DNA from: an uncultured Roseibium sp.
Lineage (GTDB): Bacteria; Pseudomonadota; Alphaproteobacteria; Rhizobiales; Stappiaceae
Length of the DNA stretch: 64,000 bases
Assembly (NCBI RefSeq): GCF_947499295.1
Contig: NZ_CANMNP010000003.1
Span: 1-64,000 of the forward strand
Direction of reading: 5' to 3'
The translations under genes were made by a program, and so were the position numbers. Each line of letters starts with the position of its first letter. The first letter of the stretch is position 1. The notes beneath the pieces were generated by a model. It ran no database searches and had not been told where the DNA came from. It saw only the letters and a program-made list of their open reading frames with translations. Shown here in pieces: positions 1,877 through 46,005 of the stretch.

Positions 1877-3433
1877 CTAAACAGCAGCAAGAGCGCCGGG
1901 GTTGCCGGTCTGTTGGCGCAGAGCCAGTTTGTTGACGGCCGAAACGTAGGCACGGGCGGATGCTACCAAGGTGTCTGTGTCCGCTCCCTTGCCGGTCGCG
2001 ATGCGACCATCGGCTTCCAGCCGGACCGAAACTTCCGCCTGCGCGTCTGTTCCTTCAGTCACGGCATGCACCTGGTAGAGCGACAATGTCGCCTCATGCG
2101 GCACGATCGCCTTGATCGCGTTGAAGGTCGCATCGACAGGCCCGTCACCGGTCGCTTCCTTGGTGATGTGTTGACCGTTGACATCCATCGTCAGGATTGC
2201 CTTTTGCGGCCCGCCTGTTCCGGCGATGACCGTCAGGGCAATCACTTTCGTGCTTTCGCCCAGGATGTTGATTTCATCCTCGACCAGTGCCTCGATGTCC
2301 TCGTCATAAACATGCTTCTTGCGGTCGGCCAGGTCCTTGAAGCGGCGGAAAGCGTCCTGCAGCGCATTGTCGCCCAGCTCGAAGCCCAATTCGCGCAGCT
2401 TGTCGCGGAAGGCGTGACGGCCCGAATGTTTGCCCATGACCAGGGACGTTGCTTTCACCCCGACATCTTCAGGGCGCATGATTTCGTAAGTTTCGGCATT
2501 CTTCAGCATGCCGTCCTGGTGAATGCCGCTCTCATGCGCAAAGGCGTTCTTCCCGACAATCGCCTTGTTGTATTGCACGGCAAAACCGGATGCTCCGGCG
2601 ACCATCTTGGAGGCTCGAACCAGGAATTTCGGATCAATCTGCGTCGTATAGGGCAGGATGTCACCGCGGGTCCGAACGGCCATCACGATTTCTTCCAGTG
2701 AGGCATTTCCTGCCCGTTCTCCGAGGCCATTGATCGTGCACTCGATCTGGCGAGCACCGCCAGCGACACCGGCCAGCGAGTTGGCGACTGCCAGCCCCAG
2801 GTCGTCATGACAATGGACGGAGAAAATCGCCTTCTCGCTGTTGGGAACACGTTCACGGATCTGCTCGAACATGGCCTTGTATTCCTCCGGGGTAGCATAG
2901 CCAACCGTGTCGGGCAGATTGATCGTGGTAGCGCCGCATTTGATCGCGGCTTCAACGCACCTGCACAAATAGTCGATCGGGGTGCGGGTCGCGTCCATGG
3001 CGGACCATTCCACATCTTCGATCAGGTTGCGGGAGCGGGTCACCGTGTCGGTGATGATCTCCATCACCTCGTCTTCCGTCTTGTTCATCTGGAACTTCAG
3101 ATGAATAGGCGATGTGGAGACAAAGGTATGGATTCGGCCTTTTTCAGCATGTTTGACCGCTTCCCCACAGCGGTCGATATCGGCATGGACCGCTCTGGCG
3201 AGACCTGCAATGACGGAGTTCTTGGAGCGCTTTGCGATCTCGCTGACGGCTTCAAAGTCACCATTTGAGGCAATCGGGAAGCCCGCTTCAATGATGTCGA
3301 CGCCCATGTCGTCGAGGATTTCAGCGATCTGCAGCTTCTCTTCCAGTGTCATCGACGCGCCGGGCGACTGTTCTCCATCGCGCAAGGTGGTGTCGAAGAT
3401 GCGGATTTGATCCTTCTCAGGAGTGGCAGTCAT
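1877..3433 (-). CDS. leuA: 2-isopropylmalate synthase
   Basis: The enzyme condenses acetyl-CoA with 2-oxoisovalerate, the committed step of leucine synthesis, in the cytoplasm. The product has 518 residues, the normal length for the E. coli-type enzyme. The N-terminal TIM barrel carries DTTLRDGEQSPG (from residue 14) and the metal-binding HCHDD near residue 207. The C-terminal LeuA dimerisation/regulatory domain (about 370-510) contains the GTGGPQKA segment expected for leucine feedback control. The start ATG at 3433 is followed by TATPEKDQIRIFDTTLRDG. A leader peptide with Leu codon runs lies 137 bases upstream, which suggests attenuation by leucine supply. The gene stands alone and has its own terminator. 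Confidence 0.97.
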   Translation of the reverse strand: MTATPEKDQIRIFDTTLRDGEQSPGASMTLEEKLQIAEILDDMGVDIIEAGFPIASNGDFEAVSEIAKRSKNSVIAGLARAVHADIDRCGEAVKHAEKGRIHTFVSTSPIHLKFQMNKTEDEVMEIITDTVTRSRNLIEDVEWSAMDATRTPIDYLCRCVEAAIKCGATTINLPDTVGYATPEEYKAMFEQIRERVPNSEKAIFSVHCHDDLGLAVANSLAGVAGGARQIECTINGLGERAGNASLEEIVMAVRTRGDILPYTTQIDPKFLVRASKMVAGASGFAVQYNKAIVGKNAFAHESGIHQDGMLKNAETYEIMRPEDVGVKATSLVMGKHSGRHAFRDKLRELGFELGDNALQDAFRRFKDLADRKKHVYDEDIEALVEDEINILGESTKVIALTVIAGTGGPQKAILTMDVNGQHITKEATGDGPVDATFNAIKAIVPHEATLSLYQVHAVTEGTDAQAEVSVRLEADGRIATGKGADTDTLVASARAYVSAVNKLALRQQTGNPGALAAV

Positions 3434-3525
3434 GTCGTTTCGTCCCAGTCTTGGATCGGGCCGTTCTGCAATTGATGGAACCTGGGCGCGCGATCCGGAT
3501 TTCGTGATGCGTTTTCAAAGTGTCT

Positions 3526-3577
3526 CCCCTAAGTGCCCGTTCCGCTATTTACCTGCGGAGCAGCCGACGCTCAGGGG
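3526..3577 (-). promoter_or_regulatory. possible attenuator hairpin between leader peptide and leuA
   Basis: In the minus-strand transcript, CCCCUGAG (overlapping the leader stop codon) can pair over eight bases with CUUAGGGG about 36 bases downstream. Smaller hairpins such as CUGC-UCC-GCAG can form inside the loop. No U tract follows, so if this is an attenuator it would work through Rho or translation rather than intrinsic termination. The structure was drawn by hand, not computed. Confidence 0.4.
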
Positions 3578-3669
3578 CATCTAAGAAGGAGGAGATCGCC
3601 AAGTAGAAGGAGGCCGCGCGCGGTCCGCGCGTTAACAGAAGAGCCGGAAATGTCGCTTGCCGCGATCAT
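3571..3669 (-). CDS. leucine-rich leader peptide of leuA
   Basis: This is a 32-codon reading frame from ATG at 3669 to TGA at 3571. Its C-terminal half reads GLLLLGDLLLLRCP: two blocks of four consecutive Leu codons (CTC CTT CTA CTT, then CTC CTC CTT CTT). An in-frame TGA lies eight codons upstream of the ATG, so the frame is self-contained. It sits directly upstream of leuA on the same strand. Ribosome stalling on Leu codons when charged tRNA-Leu is scarce is the classical attenuation mechanism for leu operons. That role is inferred here from the codon runs and position. The ribosome site is weak. Confidence 0.75.
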   Translation of the reverse strand: MIAASDISGSSVNARTARGLLLLGDLLLLRCP

Positions 3670-3743
3670 GGATCTGTCTTTGGCCTTTGATCATCTTCAA
3701 ATTGCGTCTATCGAGGTTCGCTTAAAAGCGTGACCTGACAGTT

Positions 3744-3756
3744 AACGAAATTCGTT
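3744..3756. repeat. 13-bp palindrome upstream of the leuA leader
   Basis: AACGAA and TTCGTT flank one base, about 75 bp upstream of the leader start codon. It may be a regulator site in the leuA promoter, but no specific factor can be assigned. Confidence 0.3.
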
Positions 3757-3842
3757 CTTAAGGCAGGTTTTCATCCGATGCAACAGAGTTTTGCCAGGCG
3801 GGAAACAGGAAGCTTTCCTCCGTCCGGCAATTGGACACGCCG

Positions 3843-4082
3843 TCACCTGCCATTTCCGCCCTTGGGTTGTCCGTATTCATCGGCAAAGTCGTGCATGACT
3901 TTTTGGAATTTTGCACCATCGACGACTTCATCGAAGTTTTCCAAAATTATGCTCAGCAAATAGTTGTTGCCGTAGTGCCATTCATCATTCAGTGCGCGTA
4001 GGCGGCGATAAGCCTCCGCCGTCAGGGCCGCATTGAAGCGATTTGGCAATGGGAGGCGCTTAGGCTTTGCTGGCATCTTCAT
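3843..4082 (-). CDS. hypothetical protein of 79 residues overlapping the sigma factor gene
   Basis: I do not recognise this protein. It is basic at the N-terminus (MKMPAKPKRLPLPNRF), followed by helical segments (TAEAYRRLRALNDEWHYG, LLSIILENFDEVV). That is compatible with a small DNA-binding or ribbon-helix-helix-like fold, but this is not established. The start at 4082 is chosen because GTGGAG lies six bases upstream. It overlaps the last 23 bases of the ECF sigma gene on the same strand, so translation is probably coupled. A longer frame without a good ribosome site reaches 4229. Confidence 0.5.
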   Translation of the reverse strand: MKMPAKPKRLPLPNRFNAALTAEAYRRLRALNDEWHYGNNYLLSIILENFDEVVDGAKFQKVMHDFADEYGQPKGGNGR

Positions 4083-4887
4083 TTTCTCCACATCCTGAAA
4101 GGGGTTCCACTGAGCCTTCTCCAGCATCCTCAATTTGCTTCGTCCGACGCCAAAAGATGTCATGGAGGCTCGACATTGTTCCCGGTTCTGCAGCGCGCAC
4201 AACAGCCATTCGATCTGCAAAGTCGTCAATTTCAGGAAAGAGTGTCTTTGCTCCCGTTGCGCCTGCCGCCATTTTAAGTCCCGCGCACTGGTGGCAGATG
4301 CCTTTTTTATTTACGAGGGCGCAGAGCCCTTCGAACTTGTCCTGCATGGCCGTTCGAGCCGCGGACAGGCGATGACGCAATACACTATCGGACACTCCAA
4401 GCACTGTCGATGCTTCGCGAGAAGACAGATCAAGAACGTCTCGCAAGACAAGCGCGGCCTGTTCATCTGCAGGCAAGGACCTGCCGACACAGGTAAAGCA
4501 ATAGGCAACATGCTGCTGAACGTCGTAGGAAAATTCCGGATCGGACAGTGCTGTCATCACTTCGCCTGACAGATCCTGCGAACTGGCACAAAGGTTCGCA
4601 TAGGCAACCTGCGCTTCGGTTCGCCAACGTTTTTGAGTGCGTAAATGGTCAACGGCTGCGCGGGTGGCGATGGATGTCACCCAGGTTGAAAACAGCGATT
4701 TTTCTTCAAAGGTCGTGATGCGTGTCCAGGCCTTCGTTACGGTTTCCTGGAGAATGTCCTCACTGTCTTCCGGATGCCCTATCAGCCGCCGAACAATCCT
4801 GCGCAACTGGGGAAGTTCGGCGCTCAGCAGTTCCGTGAAAGCTTGCCTGTCACCTTTTTTTGCCTTTTTGATCAAGCTGTCACACAT
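4060..4887 (-). CDS. ECF-type RNA polymerase sigma factor with C-terminal extension
   Basis: The product has 275 residues. Region 2 lies in roughly the first 90 (AFTELLSAELPQLRRIVRRL, GHPEDSEDILQETVTKAWTRI, then FSTWVTSIATRAAVDHLR), and region 4 lies near 140-190 (LPADEQAALVLRDVLDLSSREASTVLGVS). After region 4 there are about 85 further residues with a C-x-x-C pair (GICHQCAGLK). Most ECF factors are near 190 residues, so the extension may be a built-in regulatory domain replacing an anti-sigma factor. The start at 4887 has GAAGGGA upstream. The first codons overlap the end of the upstream membrane protein gene, so the two are likely one operon with coupled translation. Confidence 0.85.
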   Translation of the reverse strand: MCDSLIKKAKKGDRQAFTELLSAELPQLRRIVRRLIGHPEDSEDILQETVTKAWTRITTFEEKSLFSTWVTSIATRAAVDHLRTQKRWRTEAQVAYANLCASSQDLSGEVMTALSDPEFSYDVQQHVAYCFTCVGRSLPADEQAALVLRDVLDLSSREASTVLGVSDSVLRHRLSAARTAMQDKFEGLCALVNKKGICHQCAGLKMAAGATGAKTLFPEIDDFADRMAVVRAAEPGTMSSLHDIFWRRTKQIEDAGEGSVEPLSGCGENEDASKA

Positions 4888-5305
4888 GACTCGGATCCCT
4901 TCTACAGGCGACGCCGCCGAATATTGCAGCAAACCCGAACAGTCCCAAGCCAGGCAATGCGTCGGCAATGGAAAGATAGCCCGGCAAGATGAGAAACAAA
5001 ACGAGCCCGAGTTCAACCGCCGCAACCAGCATTGTGTTCAGCGTCAGCCCGACTTGGGAGTTTGACCAGTTGAATTTCAGCGCGACAAAAATGGATGTCA
5101 GCCCGCTGATTGCCAAAAGATAGGCGAAATAGGAAAGGATGCCGCCAGCAGCGGCAGGTAGTGCGGCACCGTCATGACCATAGATCATGTAACCGGCTCC
5201 AGGTCCTGATGTGTGGGTGGTGATCAGAATGTAGGCTGCCCCGACAACATGAAGCAGTCCCCAAAGACAAAAGCCGATCGCACCAAATCTTGCGTATGAC
5301 ATCAT
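4880..5305 (-). CDS. small four-helix membrane protein
   Basis: The product has 141 residues and about four hydrophobic segments: IGFCLWGLLHVVGAAYIL, LSYFAYLLAISGLTSIFVAL, LVAAVELGLVLFLILPGYL and GLGLFGFAAIFGGVA. No catalytic motif is visible. The start at 5305 is preferred because GGAGA precedes it; an upstream ATG at 5326 lacks a ribosome site. Its stop overlaps the start of the ECF sigma gene, so a sensing or membrane-tethering partner role is possible but unproven. Confidence 0.75.
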   Translation of the reverse strand: MMSYARFGAIGFCLWGLLHVVGAAYILITTHTSGPGAGYMIYGHDGAALPAAAGGILSYFAYLLAISGLTSIFVALKFNWSNSQVGLTLNTMLVAAVELGLVLFLILPGYLSIADALPGLGLFGFAAIFGGVACRRDPSHV

Positions 5306-45283: not shown

Positions 45284-45416
45284 TCGTTCTCGTCCTCAAT
45301 TCAAGCACCTGAAATAGTCAGGTTTTGGCTCGTCAGTTCTTGTTGTTTCCTCATCCGCATGCGGCGTCAAAGGTCCGGTTGGTGTCTAGGAAGAAGCGCG
45401 GTCAGGAGGCGGGTAC

Positions 45417-45442
45417 AAAAAAAGGCCCCTTGGGGAGCCTTG
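45417..45442 (-). terminator. attenuator terminator upstream of ilvI
   Basis: On the minus strand AGGC(T)CCCC and GGGGCCT with a two-base loop are followed directly by seven T residues. It lies between the leader peptide stop and ilvI, about 130 bases upstream of the ilvI start, where an ilv attenuator is expected. Confidence 0.85.
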
Positions 45443-45469
45443 GTCGCGCGCCATACTGTCCGTCCGGGA

Positions 45470-45526
45470 TTATCCCGCCGCGGAGGCGCGCTTTCCTACC
45501 ACTACTAGAATGAGCGACATCATCAT
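45470..45526 (-). CDS. ilv leader peptide
   Basis: This is an 18-codon frame MMMSLILVVVGKRASAAG ending in TAA. Residues 5-10 are Leu-Ile-Leu-Val-Val-Val, all branched-chain codons (CTC ATT CTA GTA GTG GTA). The stop is 28 bases before the intrinsic terminator stem. Position, codon content and terminator together match classical ilv attenuation: stalling on these codons when the charged tRNAs are low would let transcription continue into ilvI-ilvH. Any of three consecutive ATGs could be the start. Confidence 0.82.
   Translation of the reverse strand: MMMSLILVVVGKRASAAG

Positions 45527-45929: not shown

Positions 45930-46005
<76 letters not shown>

Follow-up and report, generated by a model that had tools for sequence, protein, structure and literature searches.

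The 64,000-nucleotide stretch analysed here (the window; positions 1 to 64,000 of contig NZ_CANMNP010000003.1 of an uncultured Roseibium sp.) carries on its minus strand leuA, the gene for 2-isopropylmalate synthase, preceded by a short leucine-rich open reading frame whose stop codon lies within a hairpin, H1. The features of the locus, in the 5' to 3' order of the minus strand, are as follows.

3571 to 3669, minus strand: leader peptide open reading frame of 32 codons, ATG to TGA, with an in-frame ATG in 45/45 genomes of the genus
3601 to 3612, minus strand: first Leu run, CTC CTT CTA CTT, the looser run, with LLLL in 26/45 genus genomes
3583 to 3594, minus strand: second Leu run, CTC CTC CTT CTT, the last codon of which (3585-3583) is the nearly invariant CUU
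3571 to 3573, minus strand: leader stop codon TGA, within the 5' arm of hairpin H1
3526 to 3577, minus strand: hairpin H1, from covariation and the MFE structure, with a model match at 3524-3580 of 55.1 bits
3491 to 3496, minus strand: conserved island GGAUCG in an otherwise variable spacer, complementary to 3458-3453, a candidate pairing
3453 to 3458, minus strand: conserved island CGAUCC, immediately 5' of the ribosome-binding site of leuA, the other side of the candidate pairing
3440 to 3446, minus strand: probable Shine-Dalgarno region of leuA, GGGACGA, a weak match
1877 to 3433, minus strand: leuA, 2-isopropylmalate synthase, with HMGL-like and LeuA_dimer domains (Pfam)

The leader reading frame (3669-3571) translates as MIAASDISGSSVNARTARGLLLLGDLLLLRCP, followed by the TGA stop, and its C-terminal end is GLLLLGDLLLLRCP. 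An initial annotation made from the letters alone had proposed a 32-codon Leu-rich frame directly upstream of leuA; the frame was confirmed from its ATG at 3669, both runs of four Leu codons were located, and the frame does lie upstream of leuA on the same strand, but it is separated from the leuA ATG (3433) by 137 nt. No match to a sigma-70 promoter was found in 3200-4200, and the leader may be translated leaderless. A search for plasmid copies of 3434-3670 found none. Upstream of the leader region lies a gene for an ECF-type sigma-70 factor (4060-4896, minus strand; Pfam Sigma70_r2 and r4_2), beyond which DUF899, AHSA1, ArsR-type HTH, GST, EamA and SDR proteins are encoded. Elsewhere in the window, a match to Atu_C8, an sRNA family of Rhizobiales, at 45408-45524 on the minus strand (55 bits, gathering score 50) lies near a tRNA at 45930-46002 on the plus strand.

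leuA was present in all 45 genomes of the genus, and each of the 45 retained an in-frame ATG leader of 32-34 codons together with a fully paired 8-bp H1 base, in keeping with the earlier judgement that the Leu runs go beyond chance. The second run read LLLL in 41 genomes and LLL in 4, and the first run read LLLL in 26, LILL in 11, LLL in 3, LLLI in 3 and LILI in 2. In five loci (L116-L119 and L124) a further ATG lies within the frame, 27 codons before its end. The Leu codons of the leader stretch in the genus were CTT (156), CTC (124), CTA (47) and CTG (8), and the C-terminal residues were RCP in 39 genomes, SCP in 5 and SRP in 1; outside the genus, chiefly the Leu residues and the final Pro of the leader are kept.

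When identical elements from the wider search described below were collapsed, 204 unique elements remained, and codon -4 was CUU in 196 of them, while codons -5, -6 and -7 varied among CUC, CUU, CUG and CUA. The codon before this CUU was CGA in 21/204 and CGC in 3/204; CGA is probably a slow codon. Two Leu codons are all that is left in several other families, whose leader ends in Leu-Arg-Leu-x-x-Pro-stop, usually with CGA ahead of the CUU (L229, L237, L240, L241, L242, L244, L246, L248, L251, L283, L284 and L291). Within leuA, Leu is encoded by CUG in 56.7%, CUC in 29.1%, CUU in 3.5% and CUA in 0.7% of cases (4150 Leu codons, covering part of leuA from 137 representatives). A run of Leu codons that includes rare ones makes a leucine sensor the most economical reading, and it raises the question of why CUU at -4 is nearly invariant while the neighbouring Leu codons vary. 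The enteric leu leader is the classic case of rare regulatory codons, and replacement of CUA by CUG in that leader lowered sensitivity, according to the cited part of PMC1183508.

Hairpin H1 begins 4 nt ahead of the leader stop. Its base is formed by CCCCUGAG (3577-3570, 5' arm) pairing with CUUAGGGG (3533-3526, 3' arm), followed by pairing of 3568-3567 with 3536-3535, a 3-nt bulge CGG at 3566-3564, and an upper stem of about 3563-3555 with 3545-3537. A pairing segment over the leader stop codon had been proposed at the outset, and this was borne out, since 3579-3524 alone folds as one hairpin (-25.8 kcal/mol, z -2.5; 4/200 shuffles as good). The longer stretch 3640-3420 was no more stable than its shuffles (z +0.94; 167/200 as good). 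In the order-level alignment the CG of the 3-nt bulge is nearly invariant; in other families the interior of the hairpin differs, but the stem still contains the stop codon and Leu codons still precede it. The class loci show no conserved core that could bind a ligand or tRNA without translation, as the interior is not conserved beyond the order. Rfam gave no T-box or riboswitch match in the window and no match to any family in 3300-3900 even at E 10, and in 20 related loci only tRNAs were found at the gathering score.

The pairing of H1 was assessed in an alignment of 66 sequences and 19 pairs, the structure being read from the alignment itself; these were 66 of 70 dereplicated elements, with L081 and L082 dropped because their 3' arm was misplaced, L021 because its 3' arm was doubtful, and L089 without need. 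Across the 19 pairs, 89.2% of cells were paired, compared with 23.4-53.9% when the partner was slid, and the covariation score was 0.315 compared with at most 0.104 when slid, a value reached by 0/500 shuffles. In the outer helix (helix 1) 98.8% of cells were paired and 5 of the 10 pairs showed both-side changes, and columns 28/67, 30/65 and 31/64, which were not used in picking the sequences, showed 7, 8 and 6 both-side changes, respectively. Both-side changes occurred at 12 pairs in all (2/500 shuffles reach 12), but at 13 when the partner was slid by -2, and the count by itself does not favour the H1 structure. RNAalifold predicted the outer 11 pairs only, without the upper stem.

The stop codon was complementary to the opposite triplet in 204/204 unique elements, one of which has TGG in place of a stop, a complementarity that is partly a product of how the elements were selected. 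The stop/opposite triplet pairs were UGA/UCA (136), UGA/UUA (35), UAG/UUA (10), UGA/UUG (9), UGA/UCG (7) and UAA/UUA (3), plus single cases, including the one with TGG. Because the elements in this set, in the family comparisons and in the locus count and protein-anchored scan below were picked partly by stop-arm pairing (6 or 7 of 7) and Leu content, their counts are not independent proof. Two loci inspected by eye vary the base further. In L292 the stem base is GCUUAAGCG against CGCUUGAGC, with GCUU in place of CCCC, compensation on the other arm and the stop UAA, indicating that even the CCCC of the stem is replaceable. In L293, also upstream of leuA, the stop is UAG and the base is possibly extended by a CGACU:AGUCG pairing, which would pull Leu codons into the stem.

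We then followed the element through the order, class and phylum. It was found in 123/125 loci, comprising 80 LeuA-encoding loci of named genomes and the 45 genus loci; L036 and L083 lacked it (L083 has TGG at the stop site), and the arm is doubtful in L081 and L082. Some named records and genomes represent the same organism (for example, L011 and L116), so that the loci are not all independent. L155, which lacks leuA, and L157, on the opposite strand, are absent from later sets, and L196 did not pass the leuA motif. From the 66 elements, with the Leu codons left out, we built a covariance model, R1. In the window's own genome R1 found a single site even at E 10 (150 of 2198 candidates scored), and at E 0.1 it matched 308/396 genomes of the order, with E values above 0.001 in seven of these. 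One match was found in 290 of the 308 and two in 18. Extra copies of the element were considered and rejected: 14 of 19 extra matches were the same hairpin on the opposite strand, the remaining 5 lay in other places (E 0.008-0.06, four partial), and no second convincing site was found in the 19 genomes examined.

In the class, R1 matched 37/385 genomes at E 0.01, a lower bound because at most 15 candidates were scored per genome. Among the best 30 of these 37 matches, 29 loci contain leuA, and in 27 of 29 class loci besides the window's own the element lies directly before leuA on the same strand. Although no Leu codons entered the model, R1 still recovered sites preceded by Leu codons. All 32 matches among 397 genomes of the phylum lie in the class, in a search whose strict filters lose weak matches and for which the number of genomes outside the class is not given. 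A protein-anchored scan was also performed, in which the strict arrangement was a CYY-stop within a 7-bp arm paired throughout, preceded by nine codons of which two or more specify Leu. LeuA was detected at E 1e-120 in 65/124 class genomes, 59/124 being without it at that threshold, and 65 of 66 fetched class leuA loci could be placed (L295 could not). The strict arrangement occurred upstream of leuA in 36/65 of these loci, compared with a mean of 0.35 for shuffled copies, which never exceeded 2 in 20 rounds, and 4/65 on the antisense strand; 29/65 lacked it. By eye, at least five of these 29 show related forms, L233, L281, L286, L292 and L293 among them. In three genomes of family f194 of the order (G448, G485 and G515), which gave no element match, a search at E 1e-60 revealed no LeuA of this type, and this family may use another isopropylmalate synthase.

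Loci with the element include those of Bradyrhizobium, Roseibium, Devosia and Microvirga. The initial annotation had suggested comparing the regions upstream of leuA for conserved Leu codons with variable flanks and a conserved hairpin, and this is the pattern observed, in 45/45 genomes of the genus, 308/396 of the order and families across the class. Judged by sequence comparison, the predicted leader and H1 before leuA are common to many Alphaproteobacteria.

The spacer between H1 and the leuA start ranges from 43 to 138 nt, with a median of 81 (249 loci). No intrinsic terminator matched on the minus strand in 3200-4200, and terminator-like sites occurred in the spacers of 5/137 relatives compared with 4.5 expected, no commoner than chance, so that the earlier statement that there is no intrinsic terminator holds. 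U-rich sequence directly after H1 was present in 7/137 and absent in 130/137. C exceeded G in the spacer in 115/137, compared with 41/137 inside leuA and 74/137 upstream. Rut-like 78-nt stretches made up 110/223 of those in 3700-3400, compared with a fraction of 0.224 over the window, part of this signal being the CU-rich Leu codons themselves. This C-rich, U-poor spacer would permit the action of Rho, C-richness being weak evidence of it.

Alternative folds of the spacer were sought in several ways. General pairing of the H1 3' arm with the spacer was rejected as the competing fold, being weak overall (complementarity z -0.78 for the spacer compared with -0.44 for leuA itself), with candidates that differ by clade. 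Against a column-shuffle control, which is lenient, alifold z scores by clade were -8.9 for xantho (n=9), -5.6 for Brady (n=13) and -4.6 for Devosia (n=6), and 0.1 and 0.3 for Roseibium (n=44) and f187 (n=9), respectively. A second hairpin in Devosiaceae was paired in 161/161 cells (23 sequences); only one of its pairs varies, and the covariation there is possibly one event. In Bradyrhizobium and relatives, downstream GCGCC/GGCGC segments are possible partners. The Roseibium pair GGAUCG:CGAUCC is mostly invariant and hence uninformative on pairing. GAUCGC (3495-3490), which overlaps the GGAUCG island, also matches in complement the GCGAUC (3599-3594) that separates the two Leu runs, a complementarity kept in most members of the genus (25 to 41 of 42 per pair) that could represent a region-1 pairing. 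Such clade-level downstream partners are candidate alternative folds for a switch, and the overall signal is weak.

Taken as a kind, the element is likely to be a cis-acting, ribosome-mediated leucine attenuator of leuA, a category that overlaps with two of the alternatives weighed below, one that reverses the polarity of H1 and one that acts on leuA translation. The leader would be translated, and the ribosome would report the charging of Leu-tRNA. From the ribosome footprint, H1 should stay free while the A site is at -7 or -6, whereas a ribosome that has moved on to -4 or to the stop should cover the base. Ribosomes would be expected to halt at the first Leu codons under starvation, so that the starved state would be the one in which H1 is formed: when leucine is short, the ribosome would stall within the Leu run, its A site having reached no further than -7 or -6, and H1, left free, would form. 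When leucine is plentiful, the ribosome would reach the stop and sit on the 5' arm, H1 would be blocked while the downstream RNA is synthesized, and the freed 3' arm and the spacer would refold otherwise or stay exposed. That the formed H1 corresponds to leuA being on, and the open H1 to its being off, we consider an even call.

The putative OFF step is not an intrinsic terminator. Because no such terminator is present, hiding of the ribosome-binding site is unsupported and the spacer is C-rich and U-poor, we lean towards premature, probably Rho-dependent, termination in the spacer, which we favour over an effect on leuA translation; the former seems plausible at somewhat below even chances, and the latter is rather doubtful. 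The initial annotation had named both outputs, and of these the effect on leuA initiation through hiding of the ribosome-binding site was modelled and found unsupported, whereas Rho is weakly suggested by composition.

The version of a translational effect that we weighed in detail, of the kind proposed for the actinobacterial LEU element, holds that an open H1 lets either its 3' arm or the CU-rich Leu codons pair around the ribosome-binding site of leuA and so block initiation. In L148 and L151 the H1 3' arm is, by eye, complementary to the start of leuA, and conserved segments lie near the Shine-Dalgarno sequence in Roseibium and Devosiaceae. However, when hiding of the Shine-Dalgarno sequence by the H1 3' arm was modelled for 137 sequences, its accessibility was 0.581 with H1 available and 0.561 with the H1 arm blocked, a difference of 0.019 that is no larger than the 0.027 in swapped-spacer controls, and this candidate was rejected. 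Complementarity of the Leu run to the downstream region was likewise slight (z -0.41; 12% of 114 at p 0.05). We regard such translational attenuation as improbable, if still worth naming first among the alternatives.

A second alternative, which we rank marginally lower and also consider unlikely, reverses the polarity, so that H1 represses: with enough leucine the ribosome would finish the leader and leave, H1 would form and expression would be blocked, whereas under starvation a ribosome stalled at the CUU at -4 would keep the H1 base open and leuA on. This would fit the invariance of codon -4 (196/204, and also in the families with Leu-Arg-Leu only), as a ribosome with -4 in its A site would reach, judged from its footprint, about the stop codon, and this CUU lies so near H1 that stalling there should disturb the base; the few elements that are U-rich right after H1 (7/137) also fit. 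Yet starvation should halt the ribosome at the first Leu codon, at -7 or further up, as both runs of the window would allow, leaving H1 free, and the 130/137 elements with no U tract after H1 argue against a repressing H1.

Action in trans by the leader peptide or by a released leader RNA has a precedent in the same class in peTrpL/rnTrpL of Sinorhizobium meliloti, as described in the cited parts of PMC7298713 and PMC10117765, and the C-terminal residues of the leader are well kept in the genus (RCP in 39/45), but conservation beyond the genus is largely confined to Leu and the final Pro, the Pro-stop is accounted for by the stem (CCC UGA) and no tested result points to a target, which makes this explanation very unlikely. 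Slightly less probable still is that H1 serves to bind a metabolite or a protein and that the reading frame is incidental, for despite the nearly invariant CG of the bulge at the order level, the interior differs across families in which the stem stop codon and the Leu codons stay, and a model made without the Leu codons recovers sites preceded by them.

A more specific design of the attenuator, which we consider clearly less likely than not, is one in which the stop codon itself is part of the switch helix, peptide release at this structured stop, in place of a U-tract terminator, would be the decision point, the nearly invariant rare CUU at -4 would set the timing, Rho would provide the output and the arrangement would be class-wide. 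If this design is true, it would represent an ancestral leucine control of Alphaproteobacteria that is invisible to terminator-based searches.

The enteric leu attenuator (leuL, RF00512) senses Leu-tRNA. It likewise places a leader reading frame ahead of leucine genes, with Leu codons in a row, some of them rare (in part after PMC1183508). Unlike RF00512, the element described here has no covariance-model match, no U-tract terminator, a stop codon inside the hairpin and a different group of bacteria as hosts; the absence of both an Rfam match and a terminator supports the initial view that the mechanism would differ from the enteric one. The tna system, named in the cited part of PMC1262725, is an example of Rho-type attenuation. 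It offers a likeness in that the position of a ribosome on a leader reading frame could gate Rho without a U-tract terminator; unlike tna, the signal here would be starvation stalling at Leu codons, and the role of Rho is putative. The actinobacterial LEU element is similar in that a leader reading frame carrying a Leu run immediately precedes leuA and a terminator is not evident. According to the cited part of PMC1262725, its Leu run pairs with the leuA Shine-Dalgarno sequence and a pseudoknot has also been proposed, whereas in the element described here the stop codon sits in a simple hairpin that does not include the Leu run; within the features tested, the two differ in structure.

Within the Alphaproteobacteria, an ilvB leader peptide is named in the cited part of PMC1273637, with reference to Vitreschak 2004, and Caulobacter ilvL is described as transcription attenuation in that of PMC4117421; these leaders share the class and concern branched-chain amino acids but precede other genes, and in these passages no link to H1 was seen. 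In the same class, uORFC-8-2 before cysS of Rhodobacterales combines an upstream reading frame carrying regulatory codons with a conserved RNA, but its codons are for cysteine and its gene is another (cited part of PMC8632094). The leaders named for Alphaproteobacteria in the cited parts of PMC10117765, PMC4117421, PMC1273637 and PMC8632094 are trp, trpS, ilv, cysS and possible Thr and Lys leaders. We found no description of an alphaproteobacterial leuA leader in the portions of the open-licence literature consulted, where Vitreschak 2004 figures by citation only, and an earlier mention of the leader there or in other surveys is possible; the novelty of the leader peptide alone is thus less sure than that of the stop-codon hairpin and its class-wide spread. 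An attenuator of this type, lacking a U-tract terminator, can be found through the joint conservation of a leader and a stop-codon hairpin, whereas surveys resting on premature terminators or Rfam would miss it. Compared with these known systems, the element is best read as a new layout of the ribosome-mediated leucine attenuator, with the stop codon placed in the switch hairpin, and it provides a testable candidate for control of the committed step of leucine synthesis in many Alphaproteobacteria.
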